64,000 bases of DNA from Nitrospinae bacterium bin107 (GTDB lineage Bacteria; UBA8248), in the NCBI GenBank assembly GCA_002238965.1, contig MPNJ01000003.1, positions 62,001 through 126,000 on the forward strand, given 5' to 3'. Below, one piece after another: positions 24,243 through 47,788 of the stretch. A program made the position numbers and the translations under genes. A model generated the notes under the pieces. That model was not told where the DNA came from, did no database searches, and saw only the letters and a program-made list of their open reading frames with translations. Numbering within the stretch: position 1 is the first letter of the stretch; each line of letters begins with the position of its first letter.

Positions 24243-25181
24243 CTAACTCGTCGCCCCGAGAGCAATTTGAGCGGAGAGTGTCCGACTGAACTCCTCTGCA
24301 GAGAAATAACCCATTCTTTGCAGCAACAGATTCCTGGCCGCCACCTCGATGAGTGTGGGGATATTCCTCCCGGGAGCAACGGGAATTATCACGTGCGGCA
24401 GGCACTTTCCCAGGATGTTTTGGGTCTCGATGTCAATCCCAAGACGCTCGAAAGGCATATCCGGGGTCAAGGGAATCAACTCGACGATCATCTCGACGTT
24501 TTTTTCGTATCGAATCGCTACAACGCCAAAGAGATCTTTCAGGTTCAGAATACCCAGTCCCCTCACTTCTATGTGGTGTTTGAGCAATTCGGTGCTTTTT
24601 CCGACTAACTCATTCCCTCGCAACTGGATGTCTACCACGTCATCGGCAACGAGCCGGTGCCCCCGCGTGACCAGATGCAGAGCGCATTCACTTTTTCCGA
24701 TACCGCTCTTGCCTTGAATGAGCACCCCCACACCATATAAATCAACGAGGACACCGTGCAGTCGCGCATGCAAAGAGAGGTGCTCCTCGAGATATCCCGA
24801 CAATCTCGGCATCAATTCCTTGCCGGGTAATCCTGAGATGATAATCGGTACGTTGGACTTATCAGACGCTTCCTGGATACTTGGGAAGATATCTTTCCCA
24901 CCTGTGACCAACACCGCGCACAAGGGCAAGCGAAAATATTCACGCACGGCCTCGATCCGCTTCTCTTCATCGAGGTCATCAAGAAAACGAACTTCCGTGC
25001 TACCCCATACCTGAATCCTGTCGGGATGTACAGCTTTCAGAAAACCGGCGAGTGGCAAACCATTTTTTTGAAAGTGCGTATGATTGATCTGGCGGTTCAT
25101 GCCAGACTCGCCCGAAATTACGGACAACTTCAACTCTTCCCGCAAATCCGCATACAATTGAGATACCGAGAGCTTGCTCAT
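24243..25181 (-). CDS. hprK: HPr kinase/phosphorylase
   Basis: A 312-residue bifunctional enzyme that phosphorylates HPr on Ser46 with ATP or pyrophosphate and also removes that phosphate. The N-terminal domain covers about 1-130. The catalytic domain has His142 (LHGVLVDLYG), the Walker A GKSGIGKS at 157-164, Asp180-Asp181, and the signature HHIEVRGLGILN near 202-213. The second of two adjacent ATGs (25181) is chosen because GAGG then lies at normal spacing. The 248-bp gap back to rpoN contains no gene; I looked for a ribosome hibernation factor there and saw none. Confidence 0.94.
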   Translation of the reverse strand: MSKLSVSQLYADLREELKLSVISGESGMNRQINHTHFQKNGLPLAGFLKAVHPDRIQVWGSTEVRFLDDLDEEKRIEAVREYFRLPLCAVLVTGGKDIFPSIQEASDKSNVPIIISGLPGKELMPRLSGYLEEHLSLHARLHGVLVDLYGVGVLIQGKSGIGKSECALHLVTRGHRLVADDVVDIQLRGNELVGKSTELLKHHIEVRGLGILNLKDLFGVVAIRYEKNVEMIVELIPLTPDMPFERLGIDIETQNILGKCLPHVIIPVAPGRNIPTLIEVAARNLLLQRMGYFSAEEFSRTLSAQIALGATS

Positions 25182-25429
25182 CATGTTCCTCGATGCTCTA
25201 TACACCCGGGGGATTCATTGTCCGATCCAAGAGAACCAAATGAACATTTGTTACGAAACAATCAAGATACGATGCTGCGTAAAGGAAAATGGAACGCCCA
25301 CCACCGGGGATAATAACAAATATATTTCAAATAACCCACGTATCCAGGAAGCATCATCAGCCGCCCCTAGAAACCATGGAGTGCGTAGGTGAGAATTATA
25401 AGTCCATGCACGAACCGCAATGATAATTA

Positions 25430-26863
25430 TTAACGCATTTTGCGTCTTTTGCTGGTGGGAGAGATGCGCAGTTCTTTGCGGTATTTCGTCACTGTCCGCC
25501 TCGCAATCGCCACGTTGTTCTGTTTGAGTTTTTCCGCAATTTTCTGGTCAGTGAGCGGCTTCTCAGGGTTTTCCTCCGTCACCATTTTCTTGATGATTTC
25601 CTTTACGGCCAGCGAAGAGGTGCTCTCTCCCGCACTTGATTCCAACCCACTGTGAAAAAAATACTTAAGGCTCAAAACACCCTGTGGGGTATCCATATAC
25701 TTGCCCGTCGTAACACGACTCACGGTAGATTCGTGCATCTCGATATCTTGCGCCACATCCTTCAAGATCAGGGGCTTTAGGTGGCTCACGCCATGATCCA
25801 AGAAATCCTTCTGGAATCGCACAATGCTTCGACAAACTCTAAGAATCGTCTGCCTTCTCTGCTCTATACTTTTGACGAACCAGACGGCCGCCCTCAACTT
25901 TTCCTCCAGATACTTCCGCGTATCGGGCGAGGTTCCCGATTTGTCGACTGCCATGGCTGCATACTGAGAGTTCACACGCAGGAGTGGCAAACTGTCGTCA
26001 GTGAGTGTCACCTCATATTCATCTCCTCTTTTGGTGACACTCACATCCGGGACCACTATCTCCGCGCCTTGATCGGAAAAACGCAACCCCGGGCGAGGAT
26101 CGAGACTCCGAATGATGCCGATGGCCTGTACGATGTCTTCCGCAGTAACACCGTTAACCTTGGCGAGTTTCCCATATTGAGGCTCACCTATATCCTCAAT
26201 ATTCTCTAGCACCAGGATTCTAGCCAAATCCACAAAACAACTGTTTCCGTTTGCAGGCAACTCGCTATTTTTCAGTTGGATAAGAAGGCACTCTTGAAGT
26301 GTCCTCGCAGCAACGCCAGACGGATTGAATCCCTGCACCAACGCCAACGCCCTGTTTGCCTCGCGAGGCCCAAGACCAACGTAGGCCGCCAACTCATCCA
26401 CGTCAGCCTCAAGATAACCTTCCTCATTCACATTCCAGATAATTTGTTCAGCAACCCTTGCTATCGGCTCGGGAGCCACCGAAAGACTCAATTGCCGCTC
26501 CAAGTGTTCATATAACGTATCGGGCCGCGTCAAGGTCTGTTCATGAGAGGGGAAATCATCAGCGAGGGCTGGAGACGAAAAATCTTCAAAATTGTCTTGG
26601 ATGATGTTTTCCCAATCAATCTCACCTCTTTCATTATTTTGATTTTCGGGAACATCACCTCTCATTTCCGGCATCTCACCATCAACCACTTCTTTTTCTT
26701 CATCCTGAATTTCTTCCAACAAGGGGTTATTCAACATTTCCTGCTGAACGGCTTGCTGCATTTCCGTGCGGCTCAGAGGCAACAGGCCTATCGCCTGCCG
26801 CAACATGGTGGTCATGACAAGACGCTGCTCTGGCCTCATTGTCATCTTATGCTGCAAAGCCAC
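25430..26863 (-). CDS. rpoN: RNA polymerase sigma-54 factor
   Basis: A 477-residue sigma-54. The Gln/Leu-rich region I starts near RLVMTTMLRQAIGLLPLS and includes NNPLLEE; an acidic region II follows. The core-binding and promoter-binding regions are complete, and the RpoN box reads ARRTVTKYRKELRI near the C-terminus. Sigma-54 needs AAA+ activators carrying a GAFTGA loop; the NtrX-like fusion in this window lacks one. GTG at 26863 is chosen because GAGGGG precedes it and it avoids the overlap with lptB that a start at 26926 would give. It lies downstream of lptB, the common arrangement. Confidence 0.95.
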   Translation of the reverse strand: MALQHKMTMRPEQRLVMTTMLRQAIGLLPLSRTEMQQAVQQEMLNNPLLEEIQDEEKEVVDGEMPEMRGDVPENQNNERGEIDWENIIQDNFEDFSSPALADDFPSHEQTLTRPDTLYEHLERQLSLSVAPEPIARVAEQIIWNVNEEGYLEADVDELAAYVGLGPREANRALALVQGFNPSGVAARTLQECLLIQLKNSELPANGNSCFVDLARILVLENIEDIGEPQYGKLAKVNGVTAEDIVQAIGIIRSLDPRPGLRFSDQGAEIVVPDVSVTKRGDEYEVTLTDDSLPLLRVNSQYAAMAVDKSGTSPDTRKYLEEKLRAAVWFVKSIEQRRQTILRVCRSIVRFQKDFLDHGVSHLKPLILKDVAQDIEMHESTVSRVTTGKYMDTPQGVLSLKYFFHSGLESSAGESTSSLAVKEIIKKMVTEENPEKPLTDQKIAEKLKQNNVAIARRTVTKYRKELRISPTSKRRKMR

Positions 26864-26879
26864 GTGGATTCCCCTCACT

Positions 26880-27644
26880 TCAAAGACGAAATTTTTCGCC
26901 CAGATAAACATGCCGAGCTTTATCACTTACGGCAATTTTTTCCGGGGTGCCGGATTCCAGTATACGCCCCTCATTGATAATGTATGCCCTGTCGGATATC
27001 TGTAGAGCTTCACGTACGTTATGGTCCGTTATGATGACACCAATCCCACGAGCTTTTAAGCCCACCACTATTTCCTGAATGTCGTTAACCACGATAGGGT
27101 CAATTCCTGCGAAAGGCTCATCAAGCAGCATAAAAGTGGGATTTGTGGCCAATGCCCGAGCAATTTCTACACGCCTTCGTTCACCGCCAGAGAGAGCATA
27201 TCCCTTCAAGGATTGAATGTGCTGGATATCCAAGCTCTCTAAAATTTCGTTTAATCTCCTCTCGCGTTGGTCTGGATCACGCAAGACTAATTCAAGTACC
27301 GCCATAATGTTTTGCCTTACCGAAAGGCGACGGAACACAGACGCTTCTTGAGGTAGGTAGCTGATTCCCTTCTTGGCGCGTACATGCATGGGCTGACCGG
27401 TGATTTCTATGCCGTTCAAAAATATTTTGCCCGCATCTGGTGCTATCAACCCGACAATCATATAAAATATCGTCGTCTTGCCTGCCCCGTTTGGTCCAAG
27501 CAAACCCACGATTTCACCAGGATGCACTTCGAGTTCCACGCCGGAGACAACCGTCCGGTCTGAATAGCTTTTCGTTAACTTAGTGGCCTGAACAGAAGCA
27601 GCACCTTCACGTCTTGCAGCACTACCATCGGTTCGCGTAGACAT
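26880..27644 (-). CDS. lptB: LPS export ABC transporter ATP-binding protein
   Basis: A 254-residue ABC ATPase powering LPS extraction from the inner membrane with LptF and LptG, which are not in this window. Motifs are Walker [10 protein letters not shown]-loop PQEASVF, signature LSGGERRR, Walker [11 protein letters not shown] and switch His in ITDHNV. LptB hallmarks [16 protein letters not shown] and the [14 protein letters not shown] block are present. ATG 27644 lies 4 bp after the lptA stop; its Shine-Dalgarno is poor, which suggests coupling to lptA. The longer frame to 27725 would overlap lptA. Residues before about 20 are low-complexity. Confidence 0.95.
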
Positions 27645-27648
27645 GAGT

Positions 27649-28242
27649 CTAGTTCGATTTTTTACGGCGGGGTGTCTCGCTGGAAGGGAAAAGAGTAACG
27701 TTGACTCTCTGGTCATCCGAGCCATGAACTATCGTTTTATCTTCTTTCAAATTTAATTCTATTTTGGCGCCGACTAACCGGTTCTTTCCTTCCCATACGC
27801 GAGGGCTGCCCGTCAAGATTGCGATGCCGGTTGATTCTCGATATTCGAGTCGGGCAGCAGTGGCGAACCTTCGTTTTGCTTGATTCATCTCTACGTTTCC
27901 GATGGCCACGATTCTATCGATTTCCCCCGCTCTGCCTTTTGGGGTTGGCTTTCGCTTGGAGCCGTATTGTTTGGTTTCCAGCGTATAAATTTCGAGGCGA
28001 TTCGCCTTTAGTCTCATCTTCCCCTGGTTCGCTTCCACATTCCCGATGAACACGATGAAATTCTTCCGACTGTTTACTTCCATTTTATCGGAGACAATGT
28101 GGATCTGTACTCGGCGGTTTAAGTGACCTTTTTTGTCTTTTTCCTGTGCAGATAAATTAGTGCCGCTCCACACCAAAAGACCTAAGAATATCCCCAGGCC
28201 AATGAGGGTAAGACGTATCAGGCGGTAGTTTTTCAGTTTCAA
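27649..28242 (-). CDS. lptA: LPS transport periplasmic protein LptA
   Basis: A 197-residue protein with an N-terminal signal segment (about 8-31) and an OstA/LptA beta-jellyroll domain. Typical repeats are visible: [26 protein letters not shown] style strands, then a second [12 protein letters not shown] unit. LptA forms the periplasmic bridge carrying LPS from LptC to LptD/E. It is positioned between lptC and lptB as in most diderms. The middle of the protein carries a basic insert ([11 protein letters not shown]) that is not typical. Confidence 0.88.
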
Positions 28243-31923: not shown

Positions 31924-33843
31924 CTAGGCTTGGCCGGGCGCCAGGTCAGTCGGCGAAGACTGCGGGTCATCACGAGGTTTTTCCTCCGGTTGTGGTGAAG
32001 CCGAAGTGTCTTGTTCGCCAACCTCGTCTTTTCGCTTGCGACTCCTGGTAATCTGCCCGGTTTCCATCAAAGACTCGATATCTTTGAGATCGATGGTTTC
32101 ATACTCGAGCAGCGCATTGGCGAGCAAATCGAGCTTGTCCCGATTTTCCTCAAGCAATTTATACGCTCTCTCATAACTCGACAAAACCATATTCTTCACT
32201 TCATTATCAATTTCAAGGGCCACCTGGTCGCTATAGTCCCTGTGTTGGGAAATTTCACGCCCCAGGAATATCTGCTCATGTTTTTTCCCATATGCCAACG
32301 GACCGAGCTTTTCGCTCATCCCCCATTCACAAACCATGCTTCTCGCCAAGTCAGTCGACGTCTGGATGTCGGCTTTCGCACCTGTCGTTAATTCCTCAAA
32401 AACCAGCATCTCCGCCGCACGTCCACCCATCAGGCAGGCAAGCTGGTTCGTCAAAAATGTTTTGTCGTTGCTATAACGATCCTCGAGAGGCGAAGACCAC
32501 GTGCTTCCCAACGAAAAACCTCGTGGAATGATCGTCACTTTCTCTACGGGGTCCGTCCCCGGTATCAGCAATGAAACAAGGGCGTGCCCCGCTTCGTGAT
32601 AGGCTGTATTTCTCTTCTCTTTTTCGCTGAGCGCCATGCTACGCCGCTCTTTGCCCATCAAAACTTTATCCTTCGCTTCCATCAGATCTTCATTTTCAAC
32701 GGAGCGTTTTCCCCGGCGCGCCGCAAGAAGTGCGGATTCGTTCAAAAGGTTCGCCAGATCAGCGCCCGCAAAGCGCGGAGTTCCACGCGCTATAAGATTC
32801 AAATCGACGGTTTCATCGAGCGGCACCTTCTCCGCATGCACTTTCAAAATCGCCAAGCGCCCTTTTATGTCGGGCAGGGAAACCACAATCTGGCGGTCAA
32901 AGCGACCTGGCCGTAGGAGAGCCGGGTCCAACACGTCCGGGCGGTTCGTCGCCGCTATCAGGATGACCCCATCATTCGATTCAAAACCATCCATCTCGAC
33001 AAGAAGTTGATTCAGCGTCTGCTCACGTTCATCGTGGCCGCCACCGAGTCCAGCGCCCCTATGACGCCCAACAGCATCTATCTCATCAATGAATATGATG
33101 CACGGTGCATTCGCCTTGCCCTGTTCGAACAAATCCCGAACTCTCGACGCCCCGACCCCGACAAACATCTCCACAAAACTAGAGCCGCTTATCGAGAAAA
33201 ACGGCACATCCGCTTCGCCCGCAATGGCCCGCGCCAGCAGGGTTTTACCCGTGCCCGGAGGACCAACCATCAGAACACCTTTGGGAATACGTGCGCCCAG
33301 GCGTGTGAACTTTTGCGGATCGCGGAGAAAATCAACGAGTTCTTCGAGTTCTTCCTTGGCTTCCTCGATGCCGGCCACATCAGCGAACGTGATTTTTTTC
33401 TTCGCGGATTCGGGCATCATTCGTGCTTTGCTCTTACCAAACGACAGAGCTTTCGAACCACCCATTTGCATCTGGCGCATGAAGAAAATCCAAACGCCCA
33501 GCATCACCAGCATAGGCAGCCAACTCAACAACATATTCATATACCAGGAATTTTGTTCTACCGGCTGCGCCGTGATGCGAACACCTTTGGCCCTGAGGGT
33601 GTCGATCAATTTCGGGTCCTTGGGAGCGTGGGTATGGAAGGATCTACCGCTAAGGTAGCGACCCCGGATGTTGTCACCCTGGACAATCACTTCGCTCACC
33701 TGTCCTTCAGACACCGCTTGCAAAAAATCGCTATAAACAACCGTTCTATCCGTCGAGCGTGGGCTATTGAAGGCCTGGAACAAACCCACCATTATCAAGC
33801 CGATAATCAGCCAAAGCGCCAAATTCTTGTAAAATTGATTCAA
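31924..33843 (-). CDS. ftsH: ATP-dependent zinc metalloprotease FtsH
   Basis: A 639-residue membrane-anchored AAA+ protease that degrades damaged and regulatory membrane proteins; in E. coli it also controls LpxC stability. Two membrane helices (about 8-28 and 105-125) flank a periplasmic domain. AAA+ motifs are Walker A GPPGTGKT, Walker [13 protein letters not shown], the FVEMFVG pore loop and the [20 protein letters not shown]. The zinc site is HEAGH with a downstream Asp. The start is TTG 33843, preceded by AAGAAGGAAGG and giving the usual [12 protein letters not shown]-terminus; a GTG frame from 33894 is rejected. An acidic Pro-rich tail ends the protein. Confidence 0.96.
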
Positions 33844-33940
33844 AATGCCTTCCTTCTTTTTACGGGTGAGTATATCTCTAAACCCTGAAAACACGTTATC
33901 AAGATTTTTCTCATCCGTCTACGAGTTAAACTTCAAATCA

Positions 33941-41682: not shown

Positions 41683-42735
41683 TTATATGCCTTCAATGAC
41701 GACGGAATGACCACCTTTGGGTTTTCTGACAACTTCGCCAACAACCGTGGGGCGTTCTCCTGCAGTTTTCAAACATTCGAGCACAGATTCAACTCGCTCC
41801 GGCCTCACGAGAAAGACAAAACCCAAGCCCATGTTAAAAATGTGATACATCTCCGCGCTGTCAACCGGGCCAAACTCTTGAATCAATGAGAATATCTCAG
41901 GCATCACCCATTTTTCAGGATAAAATTTAGCCTGCAATTCATCCGGCATCACACGATTTACATTTCCCGGAATTCCACCTCCCGTGATGTGCGCGATGTC
42001 GCTAATCCCCTCATCTCTCCGAACGGAAAGAACCCCTTTCGTGTAAATTCTGGTCGGCTCCAATAATACATCTTCAATGGGAACGCCTAGCCTTTGCCCC
42101 GCCTCATCCCGTGTTTCTTTTGATTCAAATATTTTACGTACCAAGGAATATCCGTTGCTATGAATTCCTGAAGAAGAAAGTGCGAGTATGGCATCGCCGG
42201 TCTTGACAGGTGTCCGATTGTCCAGGTTTTTGCGTTCAACCACCCCCACAGCGAATCCAGCAACATCATACACGCCCGGCTCATACATGTTAGGCATCTC
42301 GGCGGTTTCGCCACCGAGGAGGGCGCATCCTGCCTCCCGGCATCCCAGTGCAATCCCGGATACGACTGCCTTCAAAACATGTTGATTGATCTTGCCTGTC
42401 GCAATGTAATCAAGAAAAAAAAGCGGTTCTGCTCCCATAGTCAGTATGTCGTTGACGCACATGGCCACCAAGTCGACCCCGATGGAATCATGGCGCCCGA
42501 ACTCTTGGGCCAAGAGTAATTTCGTGCCGACGCCGTCGGCGCCTGAAACAAGTACAGGATCTTCATATTCCCCGCCCAGACGGAACAAACCCGCAAAATC
42601 CCCCGTCCCCTTCAGGATACGGTCACTTTGACCAACATGGGTGGATTTTACGATTTGGGCGATAGCCTGAACGAAACCCTCTCCCAACTCCACATCGACG
42701 CCCGCATCGCGGTATGTCAGACGGTCCTCATTCAA
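41683..42735 (-). CDS. purM: phosphoribosylformylglycinamidine cyclo-ligase (AIR synthetase)
   Basis: A 350-residue ATP-dependent enzyme closing the imidazole ring in purine synthesis. Diagnostic blocks are TYRDAGVDVELGE at the N-terminus, VLVSGADGVGTKLLLA, the ILTMGAEPLFFLDYIATG segment, LLGGETAEMPNMY and HITGGGIPGNVNRVMP. It begins 51 bp after the response regulator-LpxC gene and abuts purN. Confidence 0.96.
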   Translation of the reverse strand: MNEDRLTYRDAGVDVELGEGFVQAIAQIVKSTHVGQSDRILKGTGDFAGLFRLGGEYEDPVLVSGADGVGTKLLLAQEFGRHDSIGVDLVAMCVNDILTMGAEPLFFLDYIATGKINQHVLKAVVSGIALGCREAGCALLGGETAEMPNMYEPGVYDVAGFAVGVVERKNLDNRTPVKTGDAILALSSSGIHSNGYSLVRKIFESKETRDEAGQRLGVPIEDVLLEPTRIYTKGVLSVRRDEGISDIAHITGGGIPGNVNRVMPDELQAKFYPEKWVMPEIFSLIQEFGPVDSAEMYHIFNMGLGFVFLVRPERVESVLECLKTAGERPTVVGEVVRKPKGGHSVVIEGI

Positions 42736-42786: not shown

Positions 42787-44922
42787 TCAGCCATGGACTT
42801 CCATCAATTTCTTGACTAAAGCTACATTATGTCGGTGTCCACTTCTCTCAGCGGTCACTTTTCCGCGGATGGGACGACCGGTTAAATACAGATCTCCTAT
42901 TACATCAAGAATTTTATGGCGAACAAATTCATTGGAGAATCGCAATTGGGTATTCACGACTCGCGATTTGTCTACAAGAATTACATTATCCCAACGACCA
43001 CCTTCGGCCAATCCCATTTTCTCAAGCGACTCGAGTTCAGAGACAAAACCAAATGTACGGGCCGGTGCGATTTCTTCTTGAAAACTCAATGCGTTCTTAT
43101 GTTCATAAAGATATGATTGTTTCCCAATCGGCTTCGGATAATCGATGAGGTATGTAACAGAAAAAGAATCCGCTGGCTCTATGCGAATGTAACCCTTCTC
43201 GTCATTCGGTTCACCTACCTCATATACCTGGTCAACCCACAATTCCTCGCGTTTTTCTTTCTGATCTTCAATGCCAGCTTCTTCAAGCAAGCGACAAAAC
43301 TCCACCGCAGATCCGTCCATTACTGGTACTTCCTCACTCATTTTAACGAGAATATTGCTAATTTTGTATGCGTGCAGCGCACTCATGAGATGCTCTATCG
43401 TTCGAGCCGTCACTGCTCCATTGCGCAAGTTCGTCGCATGGTTGGTGCCATCCACGAAATCGACATTTGCCTTCACGATATCGGGGCTTGTCAGGTTGCC
43501 AAACTGAATTCCGCTCCCCGGCGGCAAAGGTTCGATGATTAATCCCGTCTTCAACCCTGAATGAAGCCCCCGGCCGTACAACACGACACTTTTTGAAATA
43601 CTCCTTTGATTTGTTTCCATTAGGTTCGTCGACGCCGACGTTACGGGCTCTATATTGTATGCTTTAATTTTTCGTTTTAAAGCCGGTTTCGTCATCCCCA
43701 CCGCCTGGGCGGTTTTGAGGATATCCCAACCGTGCTCCTCCAAATGGAAGGAAAGGTATTGTCTCTCCCACTGGGTTCTGGCCAAATTAAAATTGGAAGG
43801 GGCGTCGTCTTTTGATGATGTGTGCGTCGCTAAATCAGAAGCTTCGCGTATCGCGTACGGCAAGTGGCTGATGTCAATCTCCGAGCCTTGCGATGAATAT
43901 GCCGCTTTGGTCACCGCGCCTTTTAATTCAGCAATATTGCCCGGCCAGTCATAGTCTTCCAGAAGCGCAATGACATCCTCTGAAAATTCCTTTTTATACC
44001 TGTCAGCTTCCATGCATTCACTTAAAAATCTGTTGGCCAGCGGCAAAATATCCTCTTTGCGCTCGCGCAAAGGTGGCAGGTGTATTACATCAGCGCCTAT
44101 CTTTGAGGACAAGGCTCTTACATAGGCCTTGTCATTCAGGGCACCCATATGATCAACGGATACCATTAAACGCATTGATCCTTTCGTATGCCCGAGGAAT
44201 CTCACAAGAAATATCTCCTGCTCCGCCATGGGCAGTTGCTCCAAACCATCAAGGTATGCCGTCCCTTGGAAGGCATCAGGCAACAGCCGTTCCAAGACAT
44301 TTTCCCATTCGCTTATTTCCGTCACAGGAAACAGCGAACGGCAATGAATCGGCCTAAATCCTTCTTCTTTCCGAATACCGTTCTTGTGAATCATCCTGGC
44401 AACAAAACGCTTCCCAGTACCTCTCTCACCTGCGATTAGCAAAGGGCTAATATCTTTCGACGCTTTACGTATGGCCCGTTGAACCTTTTGAATATTTTTG
44501 CTATTTCCGTCAAGCATTACATCAACGACATCACTTGCCTTCAGTTCTTTGGCTCTTCGCGCTTGAACGGCGGAATCGACAATACGTAAAACCGCATCAA
44601 TAGACAGGGGTTTTTCAATGAAATTAAAAGCGCCTAACTTTGTCGCAGCTACGGCGGTTTCAATATTGCCATGGCCCGACATCACGACGACTTCGATATC
44701 TGCGTTCGATTCTTTCACTGCTTGCAAAGTCTTGATTCCGTCAATTCCGGGCATCCATACATCAACTAAAACCACATCCGGTGTTTCGGTTCGAACTAAT
44801 TGAAGGGCTGTTTCCCCAGATTCGGCCCGCTCAACACGATATCCTTCATCGTGCAATACATCTTCCAAGCTCGCGAGAATTTCGCGCTCATCATCGACGA
44901 TAAGCACATGTCCCTTATCCAA
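42787..44922 (-). CDS. lpxC: NtrX-like response regulator fused to LpxC deacetylase
   Basis: One uninterrupted 711-codon frame. Residues 1-115 are a receiver with acidic pocket Asp10-Asp11, phospho-acceptor Asp54, Ser82 and Lys104. Residues 140-360 are a degraded AAA+ domain: Walker A GERGTGK (165-171) is kept, but the GAFTGA segment is deleted, Walker B reads YLDGL (Glu lost) and sensor II is NIAEL (Arg lost). Residues 380-424 are a Fis-type helix-turn-helix. Residues 436-711 are complete LpxC (UDP-3-O-acyl-GlcNAc deacetylase), with zinc ligands His511 (TIEHL), His669 and Asp673 (HKILD), and catalytic Glu510 and His696 (SGHRHN). TTG 44922 has AAAGGA upstream and overlaps ntrY by 8 bp. ATG 43620 lies at the domain boundary without a clear Shine-Dalgarno. 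Confidence 0.92.
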   Translation of the reverse strand: MDKGHVLIVDDEREILASLEDVLHDEGYRVERAESGETALQLVRTETPDVVLVDVWMPGIDGIKTLQAVKESNADIEVVVMSGHGNIETAVAATKLGAFNFIEKPLSIDAVLRIVDSAVQARRAKELKASDVVDVMLDGNSKNIQKVQRAIRKASKDISPLLIAGERGTGKRFVARMIHKNGIRKEEGFRPIHCRSLFPVTEISEWENVLERLLPDAFQGTAYLDGLEQLPMAEQEIFLVRFLGHTKGSMRLMVSVDHMGALNDKAYVRALSSKIGADVIHLPPLRERKEDILPLANRFLSECMEADRYKKEFSEDVIALLEDYDWPGNIAELKGAVTKAAYSSQGSEIDISHLPYAIREASDLATHTSSKDDAPSNFNLARTQWERQYLSFHLEEHGWDILKTAQAVGMTKPALKRKIKAYNIEPVTSASTNLMETNQRSISKSVVLYGRGLHSGLKTGLIIEPLPPGSGIQFGNLTSPDIVKANVDFVDGTNHATNLRNGAVTARTIEHLMSALHAYKISNILVKMSEEVPVMDGSAVEFCRLLEEAGIEDQKEKREELWVDQVYEVGEPNDEKGYIRIEPADSFSVTYLIDYPKPIGKQSYLYEHKNALSFQEEIAPARTFGFVSELESLEKMGLAEGGRWDNVILVDKSRVVNTQLRFSNEFVRHKILDVIGDLYLTGRPIRGKVTAERSGHRHNVALVKKLMEVHG

Positions 44923-47179
44923 TGAAAGCCGTCCTTTGTTTTTCAGGTGTGATGTCCACAGTAGGCGCCAGAGGCAACGTTACACGAAAAACAGAACCAA
45001 CAGGATGGTTATCTCGCACGCCTATTGTTCCATTGTGATCTGCCACAATGCGGTGACATATAGCCAAACCTAACCCGGAACCTCTATCTTTTGTCGAAAA
45101 GTAAGGCGAGAATATATGTCCTTTCATATCTTCCGATATACCCTGCCCCTGGTCGGCAACTTCAACAACTATCATATTTCTATCCATATTACTCCATGCT
45201 TGCAAATCTATCTCGCCATCAACTTCATGGGATTCGAATGCGTTCTCCAATAAATTGATGAACACACGTTGCAACTGCTCGGGATCCGCCATGACAACTG
45301 CATTCCCGGTATCAATCTGCATCGAAAATTTCACGTTCCCTTTTCTGTCACGATATAAATTTGCAACATCCTCAATCAGTGGAACAAACTCGCAAAGCCT
45401 TAATCTCGGCTCCGGCATTCGCGCAAACCGGCTGAATTCATTCACCATTTCAATCAGACTCGTTACCTGATTAATAATGGTATCGGTACAAGATTCGAAT
45501 ACTTCCGCAAAATCATAGGCTTCAATTTCAAATTTCCTTCTCATTCTCTGAGCGGAGAGCTGTATTGGCGTAAGTGGATTTTTGATCTCGTGCGCGATGC
45601 CACGAGCCACTTCCTGCCATGCGGCGACTTTTTGAGCCCGAATCAAGGCCGTCATATCATCAAACACAATGACGGCACCAAGCCTGCCACCATCCGCGCT
45701 ATTAAGAAGGGTCAAGCTCGCGCGCAACGTCAATACACGGCCATCAATCATGACTTCCACCTGCTCCGATGCGCTTTGGTGGTCTCGGTTTCTCATAGAA
45801 CGCATCAACTGACGAACAGGCTCGAGATGCGCGCTTTCGAAAACTTCGCTGAACAATCGTCCCACGGCGTTCTGGGGTTCTATGCTCAGCAACTCCCCTG
45901 CCGCTTTGTTTAGAATAGTAACGCGCCCTCGGCGGTTGATTGATATCACACCCGCTCCAATATTTTCGAGCATCGCTTCCATATATCTGCGCCTTCTGTC
46001 GATTTCCATATTGGACCGACGCAGGATTTCAGAAGATTCTTCAATTTTCTCTTTGTTAGCCAGCAATTCTTCCGTCATGCTGTTAAACGCGTTGACCAAA
46101 ATTCCCACTTCGCCATCTGCTTGCGCATCCACGCGATGTTCCAGATCGCCATCCGATACGGCCCTGGTGGCGTCTGCTAACTTTTCGATGGGAACCGTGA
46201 TCCCGCGAGCGAGGTAGAAGCCAAACCATATGGCGGCAAAGAGAATGAGCAAGGTGACAACCAAGAAAGTGATGATGTAATTAGCTTTGATGGGATTCTT
46301 GGACAGTTCCAATTCTTTATAATTCACAAAGGAATCCGATATGCCTCTGATCTTCTCCACGAGCCTATCAGACACATATTTAGATACAACGATAAACCCC
46401 ACCACTTTATTTTGAATCCTCAAAGGCGCCACGCCGTAAATAACATCACCTTTTTCCCAATTCTCAATACTCGATCGTGACTCCCCATCAATTACCTGAT
46501 CCACGTATCCCACCAGTGGCGAGAACATTGCGCCTCGTCCTAAGCCAGGACGCTTGACCGATACAATCTCCTTCCGCTCTCTATCGTAGAGTTGGATAAA
46601 ATCTACCCCCAGGCTCTTTCTCTCGGACTCCAATATTTTTCCGACAGCCTTAGGGTTTTCCAATGAATCGGGATGCGCTTTCTCCAACATAAGAGCTAGT
46701 CGACTGGCGCTGAATAGCGCGTTTCGCTCCACTTCGCGATAATAGGTTTGAGCCACTTCAAACGACCCTTTCAATGCTCTTTCCACATTCATGTTGAACA
46801 AGGCGTTGAAACTTTGGTTAATCAAACCACTAGCCACCACAAAAAGAGCTACTACCGGAATGAGCGTAAAGCCGACAAAAGCCAACACGAGCTTCAATTG
46901 TAAGCGCGAACGACCAGCGCCCGTTCTACCTTCGTAGTAAAGACGCACCAAGTTCTTCGCCACCAATAAAATAACCACCATGAGCAGAATGATACTCAGG
47001 TTCACTAGTGCAAAAACGACGACGTTGTTCAGTAATGGAACTCCCGGCTCAAGTTCCTTGAAATAAATCCAAGCCGTGAATGAAAGAGTCGCTATGATGA
47101 TCAAAGCGATGAATGACCGCAGAAGTGTTCTCCGTCGTCGCAAAGAGGTTTCCTGATTTTTCAAATGAGCTGGATGCAC
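44915..47179 (-). CDS. ntrY: NtrY-like sensor histidine kinase
   Basis: A 754-residue membrane kinase. There are three N-terminal membrane helices (about 20-40, 52-75 and 97-120), a periplasmic sensor of about 175 residues, and a fourth helix (300-323). A HAMP domain (324-378), a PAS domain (about 397-510), HisKA with His530 in IAHEIKNPLTP, and HATPase_c with the N-box Asn646, DQGQG (677-681) and GSGLGL (700-705) follow. This is the NtrY layout. GTG 47179 has AAGGAA upstream and sits 3 bp after the DUF4390 stop. The fused receiver encoded immediately downstream is its most likely phosphorylation target. Confidence 0.93.
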   Translation of the reverse strand: MHPAHLKNQETSLRRRRTLLRSFIALIIIATLSFTAWIYFKELEPGVPLLNNVVVFALVNLSIILLMVVILLVAKNLVRLYYEGRTGAGRSRLQLKLVLAFVGFTLIPVVALFVVASGLINQSFNALFNMNVERALKGSFEVAQTYYREVERNALFSASRLALMLEKAHPDSLENPKAVGKILESERKSLGVDFIQLYDRERKEIVSVKRPGLGRGAMFSPLVGYVDQVIDGESRSSIENWEKGDVIYGVAPLRIQNKVVGFIVVSKYVSDRLVEKIRGISDSFVNYKELELSKNPIKANYIITFLVVTLLILFAAIWFGFYLARGITVPIEKLADATRAVSDGDLEHRVDAQADGEVGILVNAFNSMTEELLANKEKIEESSEILRRSNMEIDRRRRYMEAMLENIGAGVISINRRGRVTILNKAAGELLSIEPQNAVGRLFSEVFESAHLEPVRQLMRSMRNRDHQSASEQVEVMIDGRVLTLRASLTLLNSADGGRLGAVIVFDDMTALIRAQKVAAWQEVARGIAHEIKNPLTPIQLSAQRMRRKFEIEAYDFAEVFESCTDTIINQVTSLIEMVNEFSRFARMPEPRLRLCEFVPLIEDVANLYRDRKGNVKFSMQIDTGNAVVMADPEQLQRVFINLLENAFESHEVDGEIDLQAWSNMDRNMIVVEVADQGQGISEDMKGHIFSPYFSTKDRGSGLGLAICHRIVADHNGTIGVRDNHPVGSVFRVTLPLAPTVDITPEKQRTAFIG

Positions 47180-47182
47180 AAT

Positions 47183-47788
47183 TCACATTCCTTCAGAGCT
47201 AAATGTCTGGGAATAGCTCCAATCAGACTGCTTCCCCCAAAAAGCGAGTAAGTAATTAAAGGGAAAAACAAAATCCACATGATTCAGCCGCGCTCTGATT
47301 TTTACATAATATCGACTATTTGGGGACAAGGTCTTCCCAGTGACAATGGGCGCGCCATTCAATTCACGCATCCAGTCCGTCATCTCACCTTGGCTTTTCG
47401 TCACTTTTCTCTCGATCTCTTTTTCACCTTCTTTGAGATGAAAAGTGTAAGTTTTTTTCAAGGCGCTATATTTCACTTGATGATGTAATTGCCGCGAGGT
47501 GACTTCCAAATCATAAATCAGCTTGCGAGAGCGAAGGAGACTTACATCAAAGATGAACTTCGTCGTCACACCACTATGAATAGCTTCCAACAGTTTTGGC
47601 GTAAATGCGCCCAATAGAGAACCAAAAACAAGCAACTGTCCATTCTTGTTAATTACAATAATATCATTTACCCGGATCCCATCTTGGTTGTCTGTTGCGG
47701 CAAGCGCCGGCGCCACCAGAGCAAAAATTATACAGACCGCCAGGACAAGTTTCCTAAGAACAAATGTTTTCCGGGTGTTAGATAACAT
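47183..47788 (-). CDS. secreted DUF4390 protein
   Basis: A 201-residue protein with a signal peptide (about 10-31, ending APALA-A) and a beta-rich mature domain typical of DUF4390, with FDVSLLRSRKLIYDLEV, LKEGEKEIERKVT and LSPNSRYYVKIRARLNHVD blocks. In proteobacteria this family is often encoded immediately before an NtrY-like kinase. Here the gap is 3 bp, so it may be the kinase's periplasmic or outer-membrane partner; that is inference from position. The function of DUF4390 is not known. The 111-bp gap back to mutS holds nothing notable. Confidence 0.8.
   Translation of the reverse strand: MLSNTRKTFVLRKLVLAVCIIFALVAPALAATDNQDGIRVNDIIVINKNGQLLVFGSLLGAFTPKLLEAIHSGVTTKFIFDVSLLRSRKLIYDLEVTSRQLHHQVKYSALKKTYTFHLKEGEKEIERKVTKSQGEMTDWMRELNGAPIVTGKTLSPNSRYYVKIRARLNHVDFVFPFNYLLAFWGKQSDWSYSQTFSSEGM

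Follow-up and report, generated by a model that had tools for sequence, protein, structure and literature searches.

What does a two-component response regulator do at the N-terminus of LpxC, the deacetylase of lipid A synthesis? The question is raised by a gene of Nitrospinae bacterium bin107 that joins the two in a single frame. It lies within the window, the stretch of 64,000 nucleotides that was analysed, and its product can be divided as follows.

42787..44922 (including the stop codon), minus strand: ntrX-lpxC fusion gene, TTG start, 711 aa
44581..44907, minus strand: receiver domain, residues 6-114 (Pfam Response_reg PF00072, E 6e-30)
44068..44508, minus strand: degenerate AAA+ domain, sigma-54-activator-like, residues 139-285 (Sigma54_activ_2 PF14532, E 8e-13)
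43822..44067, minus strand: AAA+ lid, residues 286-367 (AAA_lid_14 PF25601, E 9e-21)
43657..43773, minus strand: Fis-type helix-turn-helix (HTH), residues 384-422 (Pfam HTH_8, E 5e-4; at 20.1 bits below the 22-bit Pfam cut-off)
43609..43656, minus strand: linker between regulator and LpxC, residues 423-438, fast-evolving by dN/dS and with no conserved internal start
42802..43608, minus strand: complete LpxC deacetylase, residues 439-707 (Pfam PF03331, 281 bits against a cut-off of 27, E 1e-83)

The frame of 711 codons has no internal stop. A first, sequence-only reading had described it in this way and at these coordinates, but had left out that it lies on the minus strand. The receiver has the acidic residues D10/D11 as well as D54, S82 and K104, the phospho-acceptor set. 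The LpxC half also scores above the cut-off of TIGR00325 (238 bits against 187) and carries E510, H511, T623, H669, K670, D673 and H696, with zinc ligands and catalytic residues among them. D54 and the five LpxC residues named in the sequence-only reading (E510, H511, H669, D673, H696) were thus rightly called intact, and they are conserved across the fused family. Like the stand-alone LpxCs of E. coli, Pseudomonas and Aquifex, the fused enzyme has the full domain, all catalytic residues and the same predicted fold; unlike them, it follows a response regulator and belongs to a clade of its own with fixed residues. PF03331 matches the genome once (profile scan, genome 96% complete), so the fusion is the only LpxC detected in this cell. 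LpxK was found in 18 of 18 fusion genomes, this one included, and the lipid A pathway therefore looks intact. That the sole LpxC belongs to a genome with LpxK lends indirect support to the fused enzyme being an active deacetylase.

The regulator half most resembles NtrX. Its best model is NCBIfam NF051870 (NtrX; residues 5-422, E 8e-77, with 259 bits against a 600-bit cut-off), and it matches Brucella NtrX (PDB 5m7n) with an E-value of 2e-47. In the AAA+ domain, the Walker A motif GERGTGKR is retained. The protein differs from sigma-54 enhancer-binding proteins of the NtrC type in that the GAFTGA loop and an intact Walker B are absent, the second acid of Walker B being replaced (LDG). It differs from NtrX and NtrYX systems by the C-terminal LpxC, by an AAA+ domain that is degenerate or lost, and by the absence of the HTH from many of its relatives. 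Beta-proteobacterial NtrX is without AAA+ (PMC13001219).

The assembly is a draft of 60 contigs, and a frame of this kind could in principle come from an assembly or frameshift error. However, the full-length continuous gene is also present in five sister genomes at 85–89% identity (in a sixth, a contig end truncates it), every genome of the genus whose contig covers the gene has the fusion, and it recurs with 58–59% identity in further genera of the family. The same continuous frame recurs in many independent assemblies from other families and several phyla. An artefact is thereby excluded, including the hidden stop or frameshift that the first reading had named as its own possible undoing.

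A search for receiver-LpxC architectures and their taxonomy, which that reading had proposed, located single-frame proteins with LpxC following a receiver in 17 of about 253 bacterial families from several phyla (386 genomes; profile search, then domain scans of the loci). Matching public contigs are labelled by their depositors as Nitrospinota (Nitrospinaceae included), 'Deltaproteobacteria', Thermodesulfobacteriota, 'Proteobacteria', Nitrospirae and Acidobacteria. In two further phyla, LpxC of the fused clade was present in all good genomes, 15 of 15 in the phylum of G080 and 20 of 20 in that of G025. In the latter, 34 of 38 matching genomes have receiver and LpxC in one frame of 430–496 aa; in the former, the open frames are all 538–962 aa long, with the receiver verified for G080, G221 and G351 only. 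Exactly one LpxC copy was found in 36 of 38 fusion genomes. The two exceptions are G008, with two fragments at contig edges, and G014, which is 70% complete and gave no LpxC.

The fusions come in three forms. Form A, that of the window protein, reads receiver-AAA+-lid-HTH-LpxC. Form B is without the HTH, and its gap between lid and LpxC (both scored) is 22–47 residues as against about 71 in the window protein. The HTH-less form is carried by two metagenome genomes of Nitrospinaceae, among others. Form C consists of receiver, linker and LpxC in about 425–470 aa. The window's family is itself divided, with form A in three genera (g1, g5, g6) and form C in three others (g2, g3, g4). A 1093-aa frame (L075) was considered as a triple fusion of kinase, receiver and LpxC, but Pfam is empty upstream of its receiver; it is a spurious high-G+C extension of the plain short form. 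We also considered whether the frames of ~430–470 aa classed as receiver-LpxC could be LpxC-FabZ, the other natural LpxC fusion (NCBIfam NF009667), and rejected this on finding the receiver at the N-terminus. In LpxC-FabZ, LpxC is N-terminal and its partner is a lipid enzyme, whereas here LpxC is C-terminal to a signalling receiver. Three loci in which LpxC alone was found (L025, L027, L028) were kept as stand-alone.

In a maximum likelihood tree of 94 LpxC sequences, the 51 fused ones form one clade (support 100/100, stem 0.75), and all 43 stand-alone LpxCs, a sample that is not exhaustive, fall outside it. A tree of the regulator half, made by a quick method, likewise split 25 fused from 61 stand-alone NtrX-like sequences by a starred branch. 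Since the fused LpxCs are one clade, the fusion arose once. Members of this clade have shed the HTH on at least eight occasions, and AAA+ together with the HTH on at least five, three of these within the window's family (counted on well-supported branches, with domain loss taken as irreversible). Receiver and LpxC were never seen separated: among the profile matches listed, down to 334 bits, there was no receiver-less LpxC in the fused clade.

The residues required for phosphorylation and catalysis have been kept throughout. D54 and S/T82 are found in 52 of 52 fusions and K104 in 51 of 52; E510/H511 are present in 52 of 52, and H669/D673/H696 in all 51 fusions that reach that far. The AAA+ domain presents a different picture, as GAFTGA occurs in none of the 28 AAA+-bearing fusions, compared with 46 of the 68 NtrX-like regulators counted as stand-alone (among which a fused gene truncated at a contig end was entered twice). 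RpoN is encoded in 17 of 18 genomes, this one included:

25430-26926, minus strand: rpoN (sigma-54), in the same window as the NtrX-like protein without GAFTGA

The gene is flanked by an HPr kinase gene downstream (24243-25205) and preceded by that of an ABC ATPase (26880-27725). The loss of GAFTGA despite RpoN makes it unlikely that the AAA+ part is a normal sigma-54 activator.

Selection within the window's genus agrees with this division. By dN/dS (NG86, dS about 0.45–0.9), the receiver (0.048) and LpxC (0.039) are the most strongly constrained parts, followed by the HTH (0.066); AAA+ is relaxed (0.17), and residues 426–438 of the linker reach 0.47. Eleven LpxC positions, for example G460, K527, E582 and P596, are invariant or almost invariant in the fused clade but differ in stand-alone LpxCs; they are candidates for receiver-contact sites. 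The repeated loss of the DNA-binding parts, with receiver and LpxC kept together, suggests direct control of the enzyme by a kinase. We think it probable that this is an LpxC with its own two-component receiver, an lpxC regulator fused to its target, in which the receiver controls LpxC in cis.

It is also conceivable that the protein is a bifunctional transcription factor and enzyme, with LpxC merely made alongside the regulator or tuning its DNA binding, and with a receiver that does not act on LpxC. The purifying selection on the HTH in the window's genus would fit, as would the unfused relatives, which are NtrX-type transcription regulators. A further parallel is DVU2934, a response regulator of the sulfate reducer D. 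vulgaris whose single target is lpxC (PMC3333781). Both systems have a regulator devoted to lpxC; DVU2934 is unfused and works on the lpxC promoter. However, the HTH was lost again and again and the receiver-LpxC pair never, and the short forms, although devoid of a DNA-binding domain, still keep their receiver. DNA tethering therefore cannot be the general function, and we regard the bifunctional account as unlikely. The earlier idea that LpxC tethers a DNA-binding regulator to lipid A synthesis fails with it as a general role and may hold only as an addition in full-length forms. In the window's genus, the selected HTH means that the protein may still bind DNA. Going by this selection, DNA binding may even be the main role there, and a DNA-binding protein with a passive LpxC may describe that genus in part.

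A kinase that could serve the receiver is encoded next to the fusion, in this order of genes:

47183..47788, minus strand: DUF4390 protein, of the family of the periplasmic NtrY partner PlrP (Pfam PF14334, E 7e-28), preceding the kinase gene
44915..47179, minus strand: NtrY-like membrane histidine kinase (NtrY_N, HAMP, PAS, HisKA, HATPase_c)
41683..42735, minus strand: purM, the next gene downstream of the fusion, an order conserved in the family

The kinase gene lies upstream of the fusion and overlaps it by 8 nt; its NtrY_N domain scores 23.5 bits against a cut-off of 23.2. After purM come purN, lolA, rseP, ispG and proS (the names of purN, lolA, ispG and proS were assigned from sequence). 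These genes are part of a same-strand (minus) run of envelope and core genes at 36074-57865, which comprises murJ, ybeY, mutS, the DUF4390 gene, the kinase gene, ntrX-lpxC, purM/purN, lolA, rseP, ispG and proS, and of which the part adjoining the fusion is conserved across the family. The order of DUF4390 gene, NtrY-like kinase and regulator resembles that of plrP-plrSR in Bordetella. PlrP, a DUF4390 protein, is genetically a third component of an NtrYX system and acts via the periplasmic domain of the kinase (PMC13001219). That study mapped it within the proteobacteria; we observed DUF4390 of the PlrP type beside NtrY-like kinases in many loci outside the alpha-, beta- and gamma-proteobacteria, so that its range looks wider.

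The unfused relatives show where the fusion partners may have come from. Among about 60 loci with an unfused regulator, collected via their regulator match and not via LpxC, 26 have a stand-alone lpxC on the upstream side, so that the genes run lpxC - (DUF4390) - kinase - regulator. An lpxC gene is also found upstream of the operon orthologous to that of DVU2934 in Syntrophobacter fumaroxidans (PMC3333781), the same placement as in many of our unfused loci. With lpxC, DUF4390, kinase and regulator clustered in unfused relatives, the fusion joins two existing members of a cluster. One Acidobacteria-labelled MAG (L071, 1048-7326) has a separate pair of kinase and receiver-AAA+ regulator upstream of a short receiver-LpxC.

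A kinase directly upstream on the same strand was found at 27 of 47 fusion loci (12 of 14 for form A, 5 of 10 for form B and 10 of 23 for form C). The remaining 20 loci speak against control in cis, as do the drifted receivers of family f96 (L149, L150, L155). This family has short receiver-LpxC proteins with no kinase nearby, in which L155 has S in place of D11, L149 has R in place of K104, and all three have Q in place of LpxC H454; from these substitutions, f96 is perhaps a lineage with decaying phospho-control. The same loci and receivers would suit a receiver that works independently of phosphorylation, either dimerising LpxC or docking it onto the kinase, so that lipid A synthesis would be sited at the membrane. 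The location of LpxC can matter, as N. meningitidis LapB/Ght places LpxC at the membrane (PMC12444477). Pure docking or dimerisation would nevertheless have no need for the complete phospho-acceptor set that nearly all fusions retain, and we consider such a module quite improbable.

Predicted structures agree with the domain boundaries. The AlphaFold model of a short form (L016; mean pLDDT 85, pTM 0.79) has a receiver with a long last helix, a disordered linker at residues 131–169 and an LpxC part that superimposes on Aquifex LpxC (1p42) with a TM-score of 0.95. For the full window protein (pLDDT 81, pTM 0.59), receiver, AAA+-like fold, a three-helix HTH (378–396, 401–408, 412–421) and LpxC were modelled, with linkers of low confidence. 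As the models come without inter-domain error, no interface between receiver and LpxC can be claimed from them. Rigid allosteric coupling is not evident either, given the length, variability and predicted disorder of the linker.

Such a linker raises the question of whether the two halves exist as separate proteins in vivo, through internal initiation or cleavage, the fusion then being an operon-like convenience. An ATG (M435) lies four codons ahead of QRSISK, a motif of LpxC, and would fit a normal LpxC N-terminus, and the linker evolves fast and has low model confidence. However, M435 has no Shine-Dalgarno sequence and is an arginine in sister genomes, and we rejected it as a start. Across 57 fused ORFs (duplicate loci included), only 16 have an ATG near the LpxC start, four of them with an SD-like site. 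The two halves share one frame across phyla, and a detached LpxC of the fused clade was not found. Separate products, which the first reading had counted among the outcomes that would overturn it, thus appear very unlikely, at least by a conserved internal start.

Proteins that join a receiver and an enzyme in one kinase-controlled chain are familiar from CheB and the GGDEF/EAL types, whose outputs are signalling enzymes; here, in contrast, the output enzyme is anabolic and serves lipid A synthesis. In E. coli, FtsH, the LpxC protease, controls LpxC output together with LapB and YejM, and in Pseudomonas MurA does so. The window carries an ftsH gene (AAA, Peptidase_M41 and FtsH_ext; 31924-33894, minus strand) ~9 kb from the fusion on the same strand. 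A LapB zinc-ribbon profile gave no match in the genome of the window, with a profile that also matches monoderms and with some candidates unscored. The fused LpxC ends in ...KKLMEVHG and is without the FtsH degron of E. coli LpxC, LAXXXXXAVLA (PMC12444477). The first reading named only proteolysis as the control of LpxC in well-studied diderms, which leaves out other routes: the D. vulgaris regulator (PMC3333781) and NtrYX (PMC12444477) control lpxC as well. NtrYX represses lpxC transcription in two alphaproteobacteria, R. sphaeroides and C. crescentus, in R. sphaeroides apparently indirectly (PMC12444477, PMC7240162). Our literature searches, which covered subscription journals thinly, found no published description of a receiver-LpxC fusion, and the words 'fused', 'receiver' and 'response regulator' are absent from a 2025 review of lipid A regulation (PMC12444477).

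The proposal that the receiver acts on the LpxC of its own chain has gained much support beyond what one gene sequence could give, through the single origin, the strongest constraint on just these two parts, the dispensability of AAA+ and HTH, and the fact that the pair has never been seen separated; control by phosphorylation is what we infer from it. The N-terminus of LpxC acquired an NtrX-type regulator in a single fusion event. The adjacent kinase would phosphorylate D54, and the receiver would then change the activity, association or stability of LpxC. Envelope signals would arrive through the kinase and the DUF4390 protein, and negative feedback is the plainest guess for the sign of control. 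In the window's genus, the protein may also bind DNA, perhaps for autoregulation, while in other lineages receiver and LpxC alone are left. We lean slightly towards a broader history, in which a DNA-binding lpxC regulator fused to its target became a phospho-switch in LpxC along many lineages, with a line from kinase to LpxC that replaces or supplements control by proteolysis and transcription and that became fixed in several diderm phyla.

Control of lpxC is known in few diderms, and we found nothing reported on LpxC control in the phyla that carry the fusion. The fusion puts the link from an envelope-sensing kinase to LpxC into one testable polypeptide, and its full, HTH-less and minimal receiver-LpxC forms constitute a natural deletion series. 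It also bears on the recurrence of the link between NtrYX and LpxC in unrelated groups.
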